From contig NJAL01000004.1 of assembly GCA_002591725.1 (NCBI GenBank), positions 186,046-250,045 of the forward strand: a stretch of 64,000 bases of DNA. Direction: 5' to 3'. Both the position numbers and the translations under genes were made by a program. Shown here in pieces: positions 16,231 to 57,496 of this stretch. Each line of letters begins with the position of its first letter. The first letter of the stretch is position 1. The notes below the pieces were generated by a model. It was not told the origin of the DNA. It searched no databases and saw only the letters and a program-made list of their open reading frames with translations. The DNA comes from Candidatus Didemnitutus mandela. Lineage in GTDB: Bacteria > Verrucomicrobiota > Verrucomicrobiia > Opitutales > Opitutaceae.

Positions 16231-17601
16231 GTGAAATTTAGAATCTTTTCCCAATCGTTGTTATTACCGTCAATCTTTCTCCGTTCGGTTGCTTTTGCGA
16301 TTTTTGCGATGATTGCTTTACCGCTCCAGGCGGGCATGAACTCCGGTTTTACCCAGCTCCTTGATGCAGTGGTTCGCATCGACGTTCGAAAGGTGAACTT
16401 CGAAAAAGGCACCAAGCGCTTAAACTGTTGCATCGGCTCGGGTGCCATTATTTCGCCGGAGGGGCTCGTCGTTACCAACGCCCACGTGACCAGCCCGAAG
16501 GCTGTTGAGATTTCAGTTACCTTGGCCAACCTCGAGCGCGTCAGTGCCAAGCTAGTCGGCTGGGATCACTGGACCGACATTGCGCTTATCCGAATCGATA
16601 TGGACGACATCCGCCGCCGCAAGCTTAGCTTCAACGTTGCCACCTTCGGCGATTCCGACAAGATTGCAGCCGGCCAGTCAGTTTACGCGGTTGGTACGCC
16701 TTACGGCCTCACCCGTACGGTTACGCGCGGCATCATTTCTAACATCGCCCGTCCGTTTGAAGATTCGTGCGGGATCGATGGCTATGAAGTTGGTACCTTC
16801 AACAACTGGCTCCAAACCGATGCATCGATCAACCCTGGCAACAGCGGCGGTCCGCTCGTAACAGAGGATGGGAAAATCATCGGCGTCAACTCCCGCGCAT
16901 ACATCGGTGCAGAGAATCTCGGTTTTTCGATTCCCTCGAATGTTGTTCGCCGCGTCGTCGATGGGCTTGAGCACAACGGTTGCATGACTCGCAGCTACAT
17001 TGGCCTGGACCCGGGGGTGTTACAGGATCTTGAAGATTTTTATGCGCTCGAAGCCAATACTGGCATGCTCATCAATGGCGTCGATCCCGGTTCGCCCGCG
17101 GCGAACGCCGGTATCCATCCTGGCGACGTTGTGCTGGCTATCAATGACCGCACCATCGATGGCCGTTTTCCGGAGCAGCTCGCGCCGATCCAGAATATCA
17201 TTGCCAGCTTCCCTGTAGGATCCACTATCAAACTCAGGGTTAAACGTAGCTCACAGGTGCTATCGATTTCGGCTGTTACCGAAAAGCTAGAAAGTCACGT
17301 AGGCGAGGAATGGGCATTCGAGAAATGGGGCCTCAGTGTTCGCAAGGTTTCCCGCGCCTTTGCGCGCGAAAATCAACTAGCGGATGATTCGGGCGTGCTT
17401 GTCATCGGCGTGCTCTCCGACTATCCGGCAGCGAAATCCGGAATCTTTTGTGGTGACATTATCATAAAGGTTGCGGGCAAGACGATCAAAGACTTTGCGG
17501 ATCTGAAGGCGATCTACGAAGCTTATAAAAAAAATTCTCAGCCAACGCTCATTGAAGCCAAGAAAAACCGGCGCATTTCACTCCACGTTTTCAAACCATG
17601 A
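16231..17601 (+). CDS. Trypsin-like serine protease, Deg/HtrA type, with two PDZ domains
   Basis: This is a periplasmic quality-control protease. With the GTG at 16231 the 456-residue protein has a signal peptide (hydrophobic to about residue 33, cleavage after LQA). The protease domain has His85 (VVTNAHV), Asp116 (WTDIALIRID) and Ser205 (NPGNSGGPLV), an intact triad. PDZ1 follows at about 245-345 (ITGMLINGVDPGSPAANAG-type and IHPGDVVLAIND) and a shorter PDZ2 at about 365-450 (GVLVIGVLSDYPAAKSGI). The frame stays open far upstream, antisense to leuS, but only the GTG at 16231 gives a proper signal peptide. An ATG at 16309 would remove most of it. The stop overlaps the next start (ATGA), so the two are co-translated. 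Confidence 0.9.
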   Translation: MKFRIFSQSLLLPSIFLRSVAFAIFAMIALPLQAGMNSGFTQLLDAVVRIDVRKVNFEKGTKRLNCCIGSGAIISPEGLVVTNAHVTSPKAVEISVTLANLERVSAKLVGWDHWTDIALIRIDMDDIRRRKLSFNVATFGDSDKIAAGQSVYAVGTPYGLTRTVTRGIISNIARPFEDSCGIDGYEVGTFNNWLQTDASINPGNSGGPLVTEDGKIIGVNSRAYIGAENLGFSIPSNVVRRVVDGLEHNGCMTRSYIGLDPGVLQDLEDFYALEANTGMLINGVDPGSPAANAGIHPGDVVLAINDRTIDGRFPEQLAPIQNIIASFPVGSTIKLRVKRSSQVLSISAVTEKLESHVGEEWAFEKWGLSVRKVSRAFARENQLADDSGVLVIGVLSDYPAAKSGIFCGDIIIKVAGKTIKDFADLKAIYEAYKKNSQPTLIEAKKNRRISLHVFKP

Positions 17602-19016
17602 AGTTTTTTCGAGCTTTCCTCCTTGTCGCTTTCATTCCTGTTTCGCTGACGCATGCTGAAACCTTGCACAAACTGCTCGAGGAGCGACTCAAGTCCATTG
17701 TGGTGGTGGAGTTTACAATCGAAGCTGAAATAGAATCGGTGTTGACAAAGGCGTTTGGTACCGTGGCGGACGACCAAGGCACGATTATTTTGCCGGGCGC
17801 CTCGGTCAGTTCTATGGTTCCAGCTAGTCAGCTGAAGGAATTTAAAGTCTACCGGCCAAACTCCACGGAGAGTTTCTCTGCGACCTACCTCGGGCAGGAT
17901 GCATTGACAAAGTGGCATTTTGTGCGTGCCGAAGCGAAAATGCTACCGTTCCTTGTTCCTGTAACGCGCTTTACGGCGAGAAATCCGGTCCCACTGGATT
18001 TGGGCGACGAATTGTGGGGCATAAGCCTGCGCAATAAGGACGAGAATTTCATTCCCTGCGTGTTTAGTTCGCGCGTGGTGCTGATTCCGAATCTGTCGAA
18101 TAAGACCGCCATTACCGCGCAGGGTGTTGCCGGTCCTGGTTTGCCAGTTTTCAACCGTGCCGGCGAGTTTTTTGGTCTTGCTGAAAATTCTTTGGGGAAA
18201 AAATTCTTTTTATTTTCGGCGCGGGGTGGCGGGTATCCGGTCGTCCTCATGAACTTCGATGAAAGCAACATGGTGATGCTCGCCGATGTGGTGGAACCGT
18301 GGTTCAAACGCATTCCTAAAAACGTCAACGGGCGCCCGATCCCTTGGCTTGGTGTTTACGGCTTTCAGCTGATCGATCCCAGTGTGGCAAAACTTTTGAA
18401 ACTGCAGGGCCAGTCGGGCGGCGCCGTGCTCAGCGATATCATGGAAGGCAGCCCGGCGGCGGAAGCGGGTCTGAAGGATCGTGACATCGCGTTCTTGATC
18501 GATGGAAAACCGCTGCCGCATTTTCGGCCGGATTCCGCGGTGATCCGATTTGTCGGACAGGAAATCCTGAGCCGCCGGCCTGGAGACAAGATGAGATTTA
18601 CGGTGTTACGTGGTTTGGAACGCAAGGATATTACCGTAACGCTTGGGGATAGGCCTAAGATGGAACGGGAGGCGGCGCATCGCTATTTTGACCGGCTTGG
18701 TTTCGTTGTTCGGGAATTCCTAAAAGCCGACAGCATCCCTAATCTTACAAAACCGGACGAACACAGCGGCGTGATAGTGCGGTTTGTGAAACCTAATAGT
18801 CCTGCTGCATCGGCTGGTCTCGAGCCGAATGTGTGGATTCGCAAAATTGACGGTAACGAAATTCCAAGCTACCATGATGCTGTGACTAAACTCGCTGCTA
18901 TCGAAACTAATCCTATGCGGCGCGAGGTCGTGTTGCTGGCCAGCTGCGATGGCAAGACGGAGGTTTTGCGAATCAAACTCGATTCAACATGTTTATCGGA
19001 ATCATCAAAGAAGTAG
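17598..19016 (+). CDS. Catalytically degenerate Deg/HtrA-like protein with PDZ domains
   Basis: This secreted 472-residue protein has signal peptide MKFFRAFLLVAFIPVSLTHA and a trypsin-fold-like region at about 25-220 in which the triad is gone. The position of the His motif reads GTVADDQGTIILPGAS, and the usual GNSGGPL has become GVAGPGLPVFNRAGEFFG. Two PDZ domains follow, at about 250-355 (GQSGGAVLSDIMEGSPAAEA, DRDIAFLIDGK) and 375-465 (GVIVRFVKPNSPAASAGLEP). Start ATG at 17598 overlaps the stop of the active protease by 4 bp. The conserved pairing suggests it is a substrate-presenting or regulatory partner of the active protease rather than a protease; this is inference. The last 28 bases overlap the ribE remnant. 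Confidence 0.85.
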   Translation: MKFFRAFLLVAFIPVSLTHAETLHKLLEERLKSIVVVEFTIEAEIESVLTKAFGTVADDQGTIILPGASVSSMVPASQLKEFKVYRPNSTESFSATYLGQDALTKWHFVRAEAKMLPFLVPVTRFTARNPVPLDLGDELWGISLRNKDENFIPCVFSSRVVLIPNLSNKTAITAQGVAGPGLPVFNRAGEFFGLAENSLGKKFFLFSARGGGYPVVLMNFDESNMVMLADVVEPWFKRIPKNVNGRPIPWLGVYGFQLIDPSVAKLLKLQGQSGGAVLSDIMEGSPAAEAGLKDRDIAFLIDGKPLPHFRPDSAVIRFVGQEILSRRPGDKMRFTVLRGLERKDITVTLGDRPKMEREAAHRYFDRLGFVVREFLKADSIPNLTKPDEHSGVIVRFVKPNSPAASAGLEPNVWIRKIDGNEIPSYHDAVTKLAAIETNPMRREVVLLASCDGKTEVLRIKLDSTCLSESSKK

Positions 19017-35027: not shown

Positions 35028-35537
35028 TTACCAAGTGTTGAGCGTTGCGTGGACGGCTGCTCTCGCCAGTTCATTTGCGAGCAGGGACATGGTTTTGTAT
35101 TCCGCTTGCAGCTGACCGCTGTCGGTAAAGATGCTGCGCTTGGCCACAAGTTTTCGATTTTCGAAAAGGGTTTTCCCTTTCTGAGTCAGTGTTGCAGAGG
35201 CTTTTAGCAAAACGTCGAAACGGCGGGTAAGCGTGGTGTCATCAGAGCGTGCGATCGTGGGCTCGCGGTTATAGCTGTCGAGCTGGATGGCTAACACCGC
35301 TTCAGCGGCCGACGGAGAATCGGCGACCTGCACGCGTCCGTCTTTGATGAAAGCTTGTGTGAACCACAAGCCTCTGCTTGGGGAACTATCACGTTTACTT
35401 TGACGGGAGCGATGTTGAGGGTCGAGAAGGTGAGCTCGTCGCCGTTTTGGAGGTGGTAGTGAGCGCAAGAATTGGCAAGTATTCTGAAAACGACTAACAA
35501 AAACAGGCGCGACCACGATGAGGCCAAGGAGAGCCAT
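35028..35537 (-). pseudogene. lptE: LptE-like LPS-assembly lipoprotein, single frameshift
   Basis: LptE plugs the LptD translocon that inserts LPS in the outer membrane. One frame gives LFLLVVFRILANSCAHYHLQ (lipobox ending in Cys, then CAHYHL) and IAPVKVNVIVPQAEA. The other, entered at about 35370, gives TQAFIKDGRVQVADSPSAAE, AVLAIQLDSYNREPTIAR and LLANELARAAVHATLNTW. Together they form a continuous LptE-type protein of about 165 residues with one one-base slip. Both halves look well conserved, so the break is either very recent or a sequencing error. It lies between bamD-like and rpe on the same strand. Confidence 0.75.
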
Positions 35538-48950: not shown

Positions 48951-49841
48951 ATGCGAGTCGTGCAACGCGTCGATGCCCATGTGCACTTCTACCCTCCCGA
49001 GGTCAGCCGTAATTCGGCCGCCTGGGCCGCCGCCCGGGATGAGGAACATTGGGCTGTGATGTGTACACGCCAGCGGCAGGACGGCTTGCCTGTGCAGTTG
49101 TTCCCGAGCAAGGCGGGTTTGTTGCGTGACATGGATCAGGCTGGTGTGGACAGCGTGGTACTAGTGGGCTGGTACTGGAATCATCACGCAACCTGCGTGG
49201 AACAAAACCGTTTTTTTGCGCGCTGTATCGCAGAGCATCCGGATCGATTTGCGGCCTTTGCTACAGTGCAGGCGTCGGCTGGTCCAGCGGCGCTGGAGGA
49301 AATTCGCTGGGCGGCAGAGCGGGGATTTTTGGGGCTCGGGGAGCTCTCCCCGCATTCGCAGCATGTGGAGACGACCAGCCCTGTTTGGCGCGAGATGATG
49401 CAGCTTGCTGGTGAATTGCATTTGTTAGTAAACCTGCATGTAACCGAACCGGGCTCACTGCCATATCGTGGGCGAGTGGAGACATCGCTGGACGATTTTA
49501 GCGAGCTCGTGCGAGCCTTTCCGAAAACTAAGTTTATCCTTGCACACTGGGGCGGCGGCTTGGCATTTGATCGTGAGTTCGCTGCGCTGCCAAACGTGTT
49601 TTTTGATACCGCTGCCACACCCTTGCTCTACGGGACGGAGGCATGGAAGCGCGGCCGGGCTGCGGTGATGGCCGGCAAGGTGCTTTTCGGGTCCGACTAT
49701 CCTTTGCGACTTTATCCGCGAATGTTTACCGGGGCAGGATGGAAGGTGTTTGTCGATGAAGCAGCGGCTGGGGTAACCGATGATGCCTCTCGCGTAGTTT
49801 TTTTTTCCGGAGGTTTTAGCCAACTGCTACGATGGGATTGA
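48951..49841 (+). CDS. Amidohydrolase-2 family metal-dependent hydrolase
   Basis: This 296-residue TIM-barrel hydrolase has a metal-binding DAHVHFYP at residues 8-15, SVVLVGWYWNHH, FATVQASAGPAALEEI, GFLGLGELSPHS, HLLVNLHVTEPGSLPYRG, KFILAHWGGGLAFDRE and VLFGSDYPLRLYP. The HxH, second His, HWGG and GSDYP ligand motifs are all intact, so it is likely active. Its substrate is unknown. It starts at ATG 48951 and is followed immediately by an ABC importer of the NMT1/ThiY class. It may process the imported compound, for example a pyrimidine or amide; that is inference. Confidence 0.85.
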   Translation: MRVVQRVDAHVHFYPPEVSRNSAAWAAARDEEHWAVMCTRQRQDGLPVQLFPSKAGLLRDMDQAGVDSVVLVGWYWNHHATCVEQNRFFARCIAEHPDRFAAFATVQASAGPAALEEIRWAAERGFLGLGELSPHSQHVETTSPVWREMMQLAGELHLLVNLHVTEPGSLPYRGRVETSLDDFSELVRAFPKTKFILAHWGGGLAFDREFAALPNVFFDTAATPLLYGTEAWKRGRAAVMAGKVLFGSDYPLRLYPRMFTGAGWKVFVDEAAAGVTDDASRVVFFSGGFSQLLRWD

Positions 49842-49891: not shown

Positions 49892-50668
49892 ATGTCTGCT
49901 GCTTCCTCGTTCGTGGTCGGTTCCGCGTTGAGCAAACGCTATGGCGAAGGACCGATCGTGCTCGAAGGAATCGAGTTGACGATTAAGCGGGGCGATTTCG
50001 TGAGCCTGATCGGGCCAAGCGGCTGCGGAAAATCTACACTGCTCAAACTGATTTCCGGACTCAGTCCCGTGACCTCGGGCAAGCTTACGGTTGCCGGCAC
50101 GATTCCTGAAAAGGCGAGGAAACAGGCAGCGTTTATTTTTCAGGAGGCGACTTTGCTTCCTTGGCTCACCGTGCGGAAAAACGTGGAATTGCCGATGCGG
50201 TTGCGAGGGCTATCCAAGGAGGTACGTGCGCAGAAAACGAAAGATTTGCTCAGCCTTGTCCGGCTAAAAGTGGCGGCGGACAAGTTTCCGCGACAGCTTT
50301 CCGGTGGCATGAAGATGCGCGTCTCGATTGCGCGTGCGCTTTCTCTGACACCGGAGTTGCTGTTGCTCGACGAGCCGTTCGGCGCGCTAGATGAGATGAC
50401 ACGATACCACTTGAATGAGCAATTGCTGGCGTTACGGGAACGGGCCCCGTTTACGGCGGTCTTTGTCACACACTCGGTGGGCGAGGCGGTTTTTCTGTCG
50501 AATCGAATTTTCGTGATGTCTGCGAATCCAGGTCGAATTTTTGCGGAGGTGCGGGTAAACTTTCTCGGACCTCGGCTGCAGACGTTGCGTAACCAATCTG
50601 CTTATCACAAGAAGGTTTCCGAGGTTTCGGCGTTGCTTCACGCTGCCGAAGGGAGCAAGGCGACATGA
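49892..50668 (+). CDS. ABC transporter ATP-binding protein (NitT/TauT/ThiZ family)
   Basis: This ATPase of a small-molecule importer has Walker A IGPSGCGKSTLLKLISGL, Q-loop FIFQEATLLPWLTVRKNV, signature LSGGMKMRVSIARALSL, Walker B LLLLDEPFGALDEMTR and switch FVTHSVGEAV. All are typical of the NitT/TauT family. From the ATG at 49892 (MSAASSFVVG) it has 258 residues; an in-frame ATG at 49832, 9 bases before the amidohydrolase stop, would add 20 residues and is possible. The stop overlaps the permease ATG. Confidence 0.92.
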   Translation: MSAASSFVVGSALSKRYGEGPIVLEGIELTIKRGDFVSLIGPSGCGKSTLLKLISGLSPVTSGKLTVAGTIPEKARKQAAFIFQEATLLPWLTVRKNVELPMRLRGLSKEVRAQKTKDLLSLVRLKVAADKFPRQLSGGMKMRVSIARALSLTPELLLLDEPFGALDEMTRYHLNEQLLALRERAPFTAVFVTHSVGEAVFLSNRIFVMSANPGRIFAEVRVNFLGPRLQTLRNQSAYHKKVSEVSALLHAAEGSKAT

Positions 50669-51453
50669 AAATCCAGTCGCGTTGCGTCCTTTTGCCCGTG
50701 ATTTCTGGGGCGGTTGTGATTGGATTGTGGTATTTTATACGTCGAGCTAGCGGATTGGGAGATTGGATACTGCCAACGCCTGGTGAGACTTTGCAGGCAG
50801 CTTGGCATGAACGGGCACGGTTGATCGTTGCAGCGGGCCACACCGCAGTCGGTGCGTTATGGGGGTTCTTCGCAGCCGCCTTGTTAGGGTTTGGATTAGC
50901 GCTGGTGCTCGGTGGATCGGCGACCCTGTGGGCTAGCTTATATCCGTGGCTGTTGGTGTTGCAGATGACGCCGGTCATCGTTTTGACGCCGATTATCATG
51001 CTTTGGGCCGGGCCGGGCTATCCGGGCATTGTTACAATCACCTTTCTGATCAGTTTTTTCCCGGTTGTCGTAACGACCATCCAGGGTTTGGTCTCGGTGG
51101 ATGCAATGATGATCGATCTCTTCCAAATGAACGATGCCACCCGGTGGCAGGAACTGTGGTATTTGCGCGTTCCGGCGGCGAAACCCTATTATCTTTCTGG
51201 GTTGAAGATCGCCGCTACCTTAGCGCCTATCGGCGCGATTTTTGGCGAATTTCTTGTCGGTAATGCGGCAGGCGGGAACGGGGGACTCGGCTTTCTCGTT
51301 TATAGCTACAACGCCCAGATTAAAATCCCAGCGTTGTTTGCGACGGCTTTGACGAGTTGCCTGCTCGGATTCATTTTTGTTGCGGTGGTCGCTGGCTTGA
51401 ATTGGTTTGCACTTCATCAATGGCATGACTCCTTCGAACGCAGCGACCGTTAA
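50665..51453 (+). CDS. ABC transporter permease (BPD type, NitT/TauT/ThiX family)
   Basis: This 262-residue inner-membrane protein has about six helices. The family fragments are DWILPTPGETLQAAW near the N-terminus, MTPVIVLTPIIMLWAGPGYP, TITFLISFFPVVVTTIQGL and the coupling-helix region LWYLRVPAAKPYYLSGLKIA before APIGAIFGEFLVG. Start ATG at 50665 overlaps the ATPase stop by 4 bp, and its own end overlaps the binding-protein gene by 29 bp. Confidence 0.92.
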   Translation: MKIQSRCVLLPVISGAVVIGLWYFIRRASGLGDWILPTPGETLQAAWHERARLIVAAGHTAVGALWGFFAAALLGFGLALVLGGSATLWASLYPWLLVLQMTPVIVLTPIIMLWAGPGYPGIVTITFLISFFPVVVTTIQGLVSVDAMMIDLFQMNDATRWQELWYLRVPAAKPYYLSGLKIAATLAPIGAIFGEFLVGNAAGGNGGLGFLVYSYNAQIKIPALFATALTSCLLGFIFVAVVAGLNWFALHQWHDSFERSDR

Positions 51454-55014: not shown

Positions 55015-57048
55015 ATGAAATATTGGTCTCAGACGTTTATTCCAACGTTGAAGAAAAGCCCGGCCGGTGCTGAAGCTGCGTCGCACAAGCTGCTCGTGCG
55101 CGCTGGCTTGGTGCGCAAGCTAAGCGGTGGTCTTTATACATTTTTGCCGATGGGCTTGCGCGTGATGCAGAAAATATCGCAGATCTGTCGCGAGGAAATG
55201 GAGCGAGTGCGTCCCGAATACGAACGTAACGGTGCCATCGAGGTTTGGATGCCGCACGTGCATCCCGTGGAATTCTGGAAACAGGGACCGCGCTGGGCCG
55301 CAGCGCGCGAGATTATGTTTCGTGCCGACAGCGCTGGCGTGAGCAAACACGGATCGAAGGAGCCAGAATTCGTACTCGGTTCGACGCACGAGGAGATTGT
55401 GGTGCCGCTGGCGAAAACCGAAATCACGAGCTACCGTGATCTACCGAAAAATTTTTATCAGATCACTACCAAGTTTCGAAACGAAATCCGTCCGCGCTGC
55501 GGCCTTATGCGAGCGCGCGAGTTTGTGATGATGGACGCCTACTCGTTCGACACGACAGATGAGGGTACGACCAAGAGCTATCAGGCGATGAAGGCTTCCT
55601 ATGAGGTCTTCTTCCGTCGGCTTGGTGTCGTCACGATCGCGGTCGAAGCGGATACAGGCGTCATGGGGGGTAGCTTTTCCCACGAATTCATAGTCCCGGC
55701 GGAGATCGGCGACGATGATGTCATCTACAACGAGGAAAGCGGCTACGCTGCGAACCGCGAAAAGGCGACGAGTGCGCTCGTTCCGGCGGACTTTGCCGAC
55801 GTATCGCCGGTTGGCTCGCTTGAAGAATTTGCGACGCCCGGTGTTATTACCATCGCGGCGCTTGAAGCGGCGCCTTACAACGTGGCGGCGGACCAGCAAT
55901 TCAAGACACTTGTCTTCGTCGATTCCGAAAAACTTTTCCTTGTGCTCGTTCGCGGCTGCGACGACGTTGAGGAGGCGAAGCTTGGCGCTTTTGGTTTTCA
56001 GTTGTGGCGCCAGGCGACGGCCGAAGAAATCGAGCCCGTGATGGGCGCGAAACCAGGCAGTCTTGGCGCTGTGAAGGGCACGATTAAAACCCCTGACGCG
56101 CTCGTCGGCATTTTTGCTGATCATGCGATCCGTCTCGTTGGTAACGGTACGACAGGTGCCAACAAGGACGGTTTCCATTTGCGCAACGTGAATGTCGGGC
56201 GCGACCTTGCGATCACGAAGTTTGGCGATTTTCGTCGGGTACGCGCCGGCGATCCTGACGTGAAATCGGGAAAACCACTCAAAGTATGCCGCGGTATCGA
56301 AGTAGGGCACATCTTCAAGCTAGGAACGAAATATTCGGAGAAATTCGGAGCGAACTATACCGACGACAAGAAACAATCGCATCTCATGGATATGGGGTGC
56401 TACGGCATTGGCGTCAGCCGCACTCTTCAAGCGATTATCGAGCAGAGTCACGATGCAGATGGTATCATCTGGCCGTGGACAGTCGCACCTTGGCAGGTCC
56501 TCTTGGTGAATCTCAATCCACAGGATGCGGTTGCAAACGGTGTGACCTCAAAGCTAGCCGCCGCTGCCGAGCTGGCTGGCGCTGATGTCCTAATTGATGA
56601 TCGCAGTGAGCGGCCGGGCGTAAAATTCAAGGATGCCGATTTAATCGGTGTTCCTCTCCGTTTGACTGTGGGCGGAAAGAGATTTAAGGAAGGTTTTGTG
56701 GAAATGAAGTGGCGCACCGAAAAAAAAATTCGCAAACTACCGCTGGAAGATGCGGAAAAGCTCGTTGGCGAGACTGTGCAAACTGCGGTAGCGAGGAAGG
56801 AAAAACCCGCGAACAAGTGGCGTGTGGTCGCGCTCAACGATCCCGTGAACCTCATGTCGTACGTCGTCATGGTCTTCAAAAAAGTCTTTGGTTTCGACGA
56901 GGCGCGTGCGCGCAAGCACATGCTCAAAGTGCATGAACAGGGACGGTCGGTGGTATGGAGCGGCGCTCGCGAGCCGGCGGAAGCCTTCGTTTTTACCCTG
57001 CAGCAATGGCATCTCAGAGTGGTTCTCGAATCCGATGAAACGGGTTAA
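55015..57048 (+). CDS. proS: Proline-tRNA ligase fused to a C-terminal ClpS adaptor domain
   Basis: Residues 1 to about 585 are bacterial-type ProS, class II: motif 1 region GLYTFLPMGLRVMQKI, motif 2 KFRNEIRPRCGLMRAREFVM, the YbaK-like editing insertion at about 225-380, motif 3 MGCYGIGVSRTLQAI and an anticodon domain (VLLVNLNPQD, VLIDDRSERPGVKFKDADLI GVP). From about residue 601 (position 56815) a complete ClpS adaptor follows in the same frame: WRVVALNDPVNLMSYVVMVF, KKVFGFDEARARKHMLKVHE, QGRSVVWSGAREPAEAFVF. ClpS delivers N-degron substrates to ClpAP. No stop lies between the two. The linker DNA contains gaggaagg (56792-56799), which may be the old clpS ribosome site. The start is ATG at 55015; the frame is open further upstream without similarity. 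Confidence 0.92.
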   Translation: MKYWSQTFIPTLKKSPAGAEAASHKLLVRAGLVRKLSGGLYTFLPMGLRVMQKISQICREEMERVRPEYERNGAIEVWMPHVHPVEFWKQGPRWAAAREIMFRADSAGVSKHGSKEPEFVLGSTHEEIVVPLAKTEITSYRDLPKNFYQITTKFRNEIRPRCGLMRAREFVMMDAYSFDTTDEGTTKSYQAMKASYEVFFRRLGVVTIAVEADTGVMGGSFSHEFIVPAEIGDDDVIYNEESGYAANREKATSALVPADFADVSPVGSLEEFATPGVITIAALEAAPYNVAADQQFKTLVFVDSEKLFLVLVRGCDDVEEAKLGAFGFQLWRQATAEEIEPVMGAKPGSLGAVKGTIKTPDALVGIFADHAIRLVGNGTTGANKDGFHLRNVNVGRDLAITKFGDFRRVRAGDPDVKSGKPLKVCRGIEVGHIFKLGTKYSEKFGANYTDDKKQSHLMDMGCYGIGVSRTLQAIIEQSHDADGIIWPWTVAPWQVLLVNLNPQDAVANGVTSKLAAAAELAGADVLIDDRSERPGVKFKDADLIGVPLRLTVGGKRFKEGFVEMKWRTEKKIRKLPLEDAEKLVGETVQTAVARKEKPANKWRVVALNDPVNLMSYVVMVFKKVFGFDEARARKHMLKVHEQGRSVVWSGAREPAEAFVFTLQQWHLRVVLESDETG

Positions 57049-57496
57049 AGTCAAACTGAACTTTGATGCGATCGCGCCGTCGCTCGATGTGATCAAGTCG
57101 GCTGCCGATGATCTCGAATCGCGGCTGGCGATCGATGCGGCAGTGCCCGAGCCGGAGCAAGAGTTTATCGACGAGTGGCGTGGCGAATTGCTGGCTGGGC
57201 AGACGAGCGATATTCGTCAACTCCTTACCCTTTTTGGCAGTGACTTTTTCACTACGGGTGCTATTGAAATCGATCCGAACAGCTGCGAGTCCATCCTTCG
57301 CGCTTGTTCAGCGCTGCGCCTGCGTCTTCGGGAGGCTCGTTTAAAGTTGCTGGGCGACGAAATTTTGGAGTCTGGGGAAGTGCTGCTCGATGAAATTCCG
57401 GAACCGGAGCGCCGGGTCTTTGCGGCTTACGTATTTTTAGCGACTCTGCAGGAACTTATCATCCAGCATCTTGATCCCATAATTTTGGAAAACTAA
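57035..57496 (+). CDS. DUF2017-like protein
   Basis: The 153-residue protein from the ATG at 57035 (MKRVKVKLNFDAIAPSLDVI) overlaps the end of the proS-clpS frame by 14 bp. It is mostly helical and acidic, with IDEWRGELLAGQTSDIRQLL, SCESILRACSALRLRLREAR and ERRVFAAYVFLATLQELIIQ. In Actinobacteria a DUF2017 gene commonly follows clpS, and size, helical pattern and place fit. The assignment rests on context plus faint similarity. It may assist Clp-dependent proteolysis. Confidence 0.6.
   Translation: MKRVKVKLNFDAIAPSLDVIKSAADDLESRLAIDAAVPEPEQEFIDEWRGELLAGQTSDIRQLLTLFGSDFFTTGAIEIDPNSCESILRACSALRLRLREARLKLLGDEILESGEVLLDEIPEPERRVFAAYVFLATLQELIIQHLDPIILEN

Follow-up and report, generated by a model that had tools for sequence, protein, structure and literature searches.

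How did a prolyl-tRNA synthetase (ProRS, encoded by proS) and the adaptor protein ClpS come to share one reading frame in Candidatus Didemnitutus mandela, and is the joined ClpS still used? We addressed this by analyzing a stretch of 64,000 nucleotides, hereafter the window, to which all positions below refer. Translation of the window gave a single stop-free frame of 677 amino acids on the forward strand (55015-57048), and its parts and surroundings are as follows.

55015..57048, + strand: fused proS-clpS open reading frame (translation, Pfam, NCBIfam).
55015..56799, + strand: ProRS part, residues 1 to ~595, with the catalytic core and its editing insertion, the anticodon-binding domain and a C-terminal tail (Pfam/NCBIfam; the tail is homologous to that of the sisters until their stop).
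56776..56778, + strand: GTG (V588), the nearest in-frame start-like codon 5' of the ClpS core (codon scan; no clear Shine-Dalgarno site).
56793..56800, + strand: gaggaagg word, judged to be there by chance (shuffling, spacing to starts).
56800..56817, + strand: new joint, residues 596-601 (E-K-P-A-N-K), where the three closest sisters carry 183-198 extra nt.
56818..57045, + strand: ClpS core, residues 602-677 (Pfam, alignments).
57035..57496, + strand: DUF2017 gene, 153 aa, whose start overlaps the clpS stop (Pfam, 30.4 bits against a cut-off of 25).

The ProRS-ClpS fused frame is a genuine observation, confirmed by the domain searches. Pfam placed tRNA-synt_2b at residues 116-477, tRNA_edit at 276-394, HGTP_anticodon at 494-585 and ClpS at 598-664, all above cut-off (64 bits against 23 for ClpS). 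The NCBIfam ProRS equivalogs NF006625 (631 against 558 bits) and TIGR00409 (541 against 306.7 bits) were both passed over residues 4-582 and, together with the class II core, the editing insertion and the anticodon domain, this identifies the first part as a bacterial-type ProRS. It resembles known bacterial ProRS enzymes with an editing domain (PDB 2j3l, 5ucm and 5znj), from which it differs in its added C-terminal ClpS core and in changes at 10 of 249 near-invariant positions. Matches in the PDB covered ProRS up to about residue 584 (5-579 to 5-584) and, in the best one, ClpS from about residue 601, and the onset of the ClpS core lies at about N600/W602. The best PDB matches for ClpS (9b1p and 9ayn, 60 bits), which presumably resemble actinobacterial ClpS, share its core, the NDPVNLMSYV motif and the pocket residues. 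Unlike these adaptors, the fused ClpS is not a free protein, has no N-terminal extension and stays under the NCBIfam equivalog cut-offs; its best score there (NF000668, 72.2 against 86 bits) may reflect a family-wide shortfall, as the scan covered the fusion alone. At the 5' end, the mechanical upstream start of the frame is 54679; the stretch 5' of 55015 gave no extra Pfam match, and the ProS of relatives aligns from residue 1 of the 677-aa version. The initial annotation had described a complete ProS followed by a complete ClpS in one frame with no stop. The frame, the ProS and a ClpS from about residue 601 were all recovered by Pfam and NCBIfam, but the word complete does not hold for ClpS, since the N-terminal extension present in relatives is gone.

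ClpS was matched in 136 of the 189 genomes searched, and the DNA of the locus was examined for part of these 136. Among 121 loci, clpS lay directly 3' of proS and was separated from it by a stop in 89, the two genes were more than 2 kb apart in 2 and fused in 2, and 28 were without one of the genes (24 had no ProS beside ClpS and 4 had no ClpS) and were left out of the junctions. Loci carrying both genes therefore had a stop between adjacent proS and clpS in 89/93 cases, the other 4 being the two distant and the two fused pairs. Both fused loci (L001 and L032) are copies of the Ca. Didemnitutus mandela genome. Similarly, the 80 named loci among 190 stretches encoding relatives comprised 67 adjacent and separate pairs, 4 pairs far apart, 9 stretches without clpS and no fusion. 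No second fusion appeared among the matches listed for 387 genomes across the phylum, stop-free coverage of the full residues 1-677 being found here only. The genome search had suggested joint frames in several other genomes, G001, G036, G066 and G077 among them; these four candidates were rejected, as their DNA (L036, L078, L093 and L098) has a stop between the genes.

When the adjacent, separate pairs of both sets were combined and each junction was counted once, 129 distinct junctions were left, which by construction have a stop and span less than 600 nt. The start of the clpS frame overlaps the proS stop in 66 of them, and the most frequent gap between the proS stop and the position of codon 600 of the fusion was 65 nt (55/129). 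At 4 of the 129 junctions the start lies on the proS stop, merely 8 codons ahead of this position; a long N-terminal extension is therefore not universal in this family. By eye, natural ClpS proteins that are nearly extensionless and start on the proS stop (ATGA) are seen at L158:5764, L201:5764 and L119, and L173:5764 is similar. These data agree with the initial annotation in that the ancestral clpS stood by itself directly downstream of proS, as relatives usually have the two genes adjacent and separate, and in that the proS stop was lost, as the stop of the relatives' adjacent pairs has no counterpart here. The proS-clpS neighborhood of the Opitutaceae has the same gene order as Ca. Didemnitutus mandela, and the next frame overlaps clpS likewise; unlike the fused pair, however, the genes of the relatives are separate. 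In the limited literature collection available, neither a search for ClpS fused to prolyl-tRNA synthetase nor, among the papers listed, a wider one on clpS, proS and Verrucomicrobia gave anything on such a fusion, and a word search of the main text of PMC5698493, which describes this genome, gave no mention of ClpS.

The closest sisters of this genome (G001, G007 and G008) share 82-84% identity in ProS, and their proS stop aligns with codon 596 or 597 of the fusion. Their ClpS has about 20-27 residues ahead of the core tryptophan, its start codon not being certain. The distance from the KWR of the ProS tail to the ClpS tryptophan is 111 nt here, compared with 306, 309 and 294 nt in G001, G007 and G008, respectively, and 167-309 nt across the 12 genus relatives measured. 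The shortfalls with respect to the three sisters are thus 195, 198 and 183 nt, every one a multiple of three, and in all three sisters the separate clpS shares the frame of proS. In the sisters, the extra stretch is made up of the stop of proS and the spacer, followed by the start of clpS and the N-terminal extension of ClpS. Since the shortfalls are multiples of three and the sister clpS is in the proS frame, the simplest account is an in-frame loss of all four. The ancestral order proS-clpS-DUF2017 of the Opitutaceae would thus have given the joined gene through a loss of some 183-198 nt; the sisters could have gained spacer, in which case less was deleted, and the comparison would be compatible with loss in one step or in several. 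Judging from the sisters, the ClpS N-terminal extension is lost along with the stop, a point that the initial annotation overlooked. At two sister loci (L034 and L036), the spacers between proS and clpS contain long palindromes that look by eye like repeat elements.

We also compared the frames of at least 150 aa on the contig (320 kb) with 280 kb of one sister, a scan for which the known proS-clpS fusion served as a positive control and was recovered. Three frames matched two sister frames each, namely proS-clpS and two others in which at least one piece is antisense to a gene found intact. What is new here is the joining of two well-known, already neighboring proteins by a lineage-specific fusion in a reduced genome. 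The origin of the fusion appears explained by the comparison with the sisters, and the function of ClpS within it is putative.

We then asked what the joined ClpS has retained. Six of six pocket residues (N608, D609, M614, M636, V639 and H640) are identical in alignments with PDB chains, presumably of E. coli ClpS, whose N34, D35, M40, M62, V65 and H66 we take to be the corresponding positions. A tree of 113 loci, shared by the two proteins, gave this genome a terminal branch of 0.255 in ProS (rank 5) and of 0.259 in ClpS (rank 11). These loci have both genes, with duplicates dropped, and G001 was left out because it shares an identical ClpS core with G008. The ratio of the ClpS to the ProS branch, 1.01, equals the median over the 113 loci (1.01), although so short a ClpS stretch (78 aa) gives little power, and a recent fusion would give the same ratio. 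The test thus suggests no sign of relaxed selection on ClpS and would not amount to proof of function. Where the other loci are conserved to at least 97%, this genome departs at 1 of 21 positions in ClpS (E638K; 128 others) and at 10 of 249 in ProS (124 others). Two comparisons with the sisters point the other way. ClpS identity to G007 and G008 is 76-77%, compared with 84% for ProS, and 81-83% to the more distant G003, G009 and G012. Third codon positions account for 32/53 (G007) and 30/54 (G008) of the ClpS differences, i.e., 56-60%, and for 286/410 and 281/404, respectively, of the ProS differences (about 70%).

The genome encodes a complete protein of 834 aa with two Clp_N stretches and a UVR motif. 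It scores under the cut-off of the ClpA model (779 against 993 bits), as is the case in all 19 genomes searched, and we take it to be ClpC. The ClpS partner thus looks like ClpC and not ClpA, as the initial annotation had assumed. ClpP was matched at two places, so that an unfoldase of the ClpC type with an N domain and ClpP occur in the same genome as the fusion. The ClpS match of the fusion is the only one in the assembly; since completeness is estimated at 74.5%, a second clpS outside the assembly is possible. The Leu/Phe transferase Aat was matched in 0 of 13 genus genomes (G000-G012) and in 1 of 19 in the searched set, though ClpS is kept; N-degrons would therefore need another source, such as cleavage.

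The host is a decaying, reduced symbiont genome, which the initial annotation had overlooked. Ca. Didemnitutus mandela has been described as a genome-reduced tunicate symbiont, with a Ver_v2 assembly of 2.17 Mbp in 10 contigs (N50 of 319.6 kbp, GC of 51.93%) and the mandelalide pathway on a 108-kbp contig (PMC5698493). The assembly analyzed here has 2,171,216 bases in 10 contigs, the contig of the window having 319,645 bases and a GC content of 51.8%, and its 108,264-base contig carries 17 of 21 ketosynthase matches in three giant polyketide synthase frames (6619, 6379 and 9403 aa). Gene integrity was scored from 70 placements, of which 22 below 45% identity were set aside. The remaining 48 genes of the contig, compared at 45% identity or more, were intact in 34 cases, broken in 11 and partial in 3, and clpS itself counts among the partial ones because the sister frame is longer at the N terminus. 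In the window, stops, frame changes or truncation with respect to the sister G008 were observed at 17310-18983, 35031-35497, 48969-49787 and 49993-51447; these damaged genes are in keeping with ongoing genome decay. A ClpB-like gene elsewhere in the genome (G000:C3:182063-183971; L225) is broken by eye, the stretch before the first Walker motif being missing and the last part lying in another frame, and we read it as clpB.

How might the fusion work? Most likely, a single product of about 75 kDa would be made, given one frame and no good internal start, and its ProRS part should function normally. Bacterial ProRS is a dimer, so that two ClpS cores would be presented on short joints. To judge from the pocket residues, the N domain of ClpC and the two ClpP genes, the core has probably kept its ability to bind N-degron substrates and to dock on ClpC. 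The extension of E. coli ClpS goes into the channel of ClpA, and delivery is inhibited when this entry is blocked (PMC9663308). The fusion has no free N-terminal extension of ClpS, and delivery would then be either independent of the extension or weakened. As a long extension is not universal in the family, extension-independent delivery to ClpC is plausible. The initial annotation had expected tethering to alter delivery, which seems reasonable as a prediction. Overall, we favor the reading that a lineage-specific in-frame deletion created a fusion that is translated as one protein and whose ClpS is probably still used, and we give it a probability of roughly two in three. A more specific version, in which a two-in-one protein carries the tethered ClpS on a dimeric synthetase in a fixed ratio and feeds N-degrons to ClpC without an extension, is put forward tentatively and as a possibility on the unlikely side.

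Four other readings were weighed against the favored one, two of which concern the DNA and its translation. The joined frame could be an artifact of sequencing or assembly, with two separate genes masked by a small indel or an incorrect join. There is a single assembly, whose contigs have been described as low coverage (PMC5698493), and a TAG in the +1 frame at 56789-56791 means that an indel just upstream would split the genes. However, the data are Illumina 2 x 101 reads assembled with SPAdes --careful (PMC5698493), the room for an indel is narrow (by eye, homology in the proS frame extends as far as about residue 588 and that of ClpS begins at 602), and a long shortfall with respect to the sisters is no usual base-call error, which makes this reading very improbable. 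A homopolymer error in the A9 run (56720-56728) was considered as a cause of the fusion and rejected, because the frame 3' of the run still matches the ProS tail of relatives. Comparison with relatives had been set beforehand as a possible refutation of the fusion: their genes are indeed separate, yet the data favor a genuine deletion over a read error. Alternatively, one frame could give two products if an internal start, GTG at V588 or later, also yielded a free ClpS of about 90 aa. This GTG is in frame just 5' of the core and would leave a 14-residue extension ahead of W602, and relatives with a short extension exist. We nevertheless find this reading doubtful, as no clear Shine-Dalgarno site precedes GTG588 and the later starts (604, 611 and 614) cut into the ClpS core. 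Nor does the gaggaagg word help, since it is no more frequent than expected by chance and its spacing is wrong. The initial annotation had seen in this word a relic of the clpS ribosome site, which we rejected: the window contains the word once where shuffling predicts 1.87 copies, it sits in codons of the ProS tail and linker where the three sisters do not have it, and no in-frame ATG, GTG or TTG follows it at a usable distance.

The other two readings accept the fusion and deny delivery. The ClpS tail could be an inert relic of decay, its frame being kept open either by the youth of the event or by the need for ribosomes to get as far as the clpS stop before starting DUF2017. The decay of the genome (11 broken and 3 partial genes among 48), the broken clpB and the loss of the extension all fit this picture. 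Furthermore, a frame follows clpS closely on its 3' side at 154 of 160 related loci, and at 98 of these 154 (duplicates kept), as in this genome, it overlaps the clpS stop by 14 nt (-14); the count takes in every frame longer than 110 aa located at the clpS stop, whether or not it matches DUF2017. Such an overlap with DUF2017 could hold the clpS frame open without any ClpS function. By contrast, ClpS evolved no faster than ProS on this branch, the pocket residues are retained, and the frames for the ClpC-type protein and ClpP are open, so that we consider an inert tail unlikely, if worth keeping in mind. Finally, the fusion could dock on ClpC without delivering, thereby restraining the protease or tying ProRS to it. 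ClpS of E. coli inhibits the breakdown of substrates with an ssrA tag, and delivery there depends on entry of the extension into the channel (PMC9663308); the fusion lacks this extension. But natural family members have merely 8 codons before the position of codon 600, and ClpC may behave unlike ClpA; a blocker or anchor of this kind has, in our opinion, a slim chance of being correct.

The favored fusion with a ClpS still in use has few parallels to be set beside it. ClpS-like domains occur within eukaryotic N-recognins of the UBR1 type, and in these, as in an engineered MBP-ClpS (4o2x), the ClpS fold is tethered to a large partner, as it is here. In contrast to both, ClpS is joined here to a tRNA synthetase, in a bacterium that has a ClpCP of its own. 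For reduced symbiont genomes, large differences in length between the orthologs compared have mostly been put down to gene fusions in a single lineage (PMC4007534), although fusions were set aside in that study and its available text names none. If the joined ClpS still delivers, the extension, which is the handle for pulling in the E. coli ClpA-ClpS model, would be dispensable for a partner of the ClpC type. A natural series of ClpS proteins with a long extension, with a very short one and, in the fusion, with none offers a cheap and direct test. If it does not deliver, a decaying genome would be losing its N-degron route through fusion rather than gene loss, the frame staying open. As one genome is concerned, the general weight is modest either way.

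The gene that follows clpS also has a distribution of its own. Of 29 related genomes searched for the DUF2017 family, 18 had a match, 13 of them above cut-off. Among 14 control genomes, only Corynebacterium glutamicum had it. A search for DUF2017 together with ClpS found nothing in the limited literature collection. A possible link between ClpS and DUF2017 seems worth attention.
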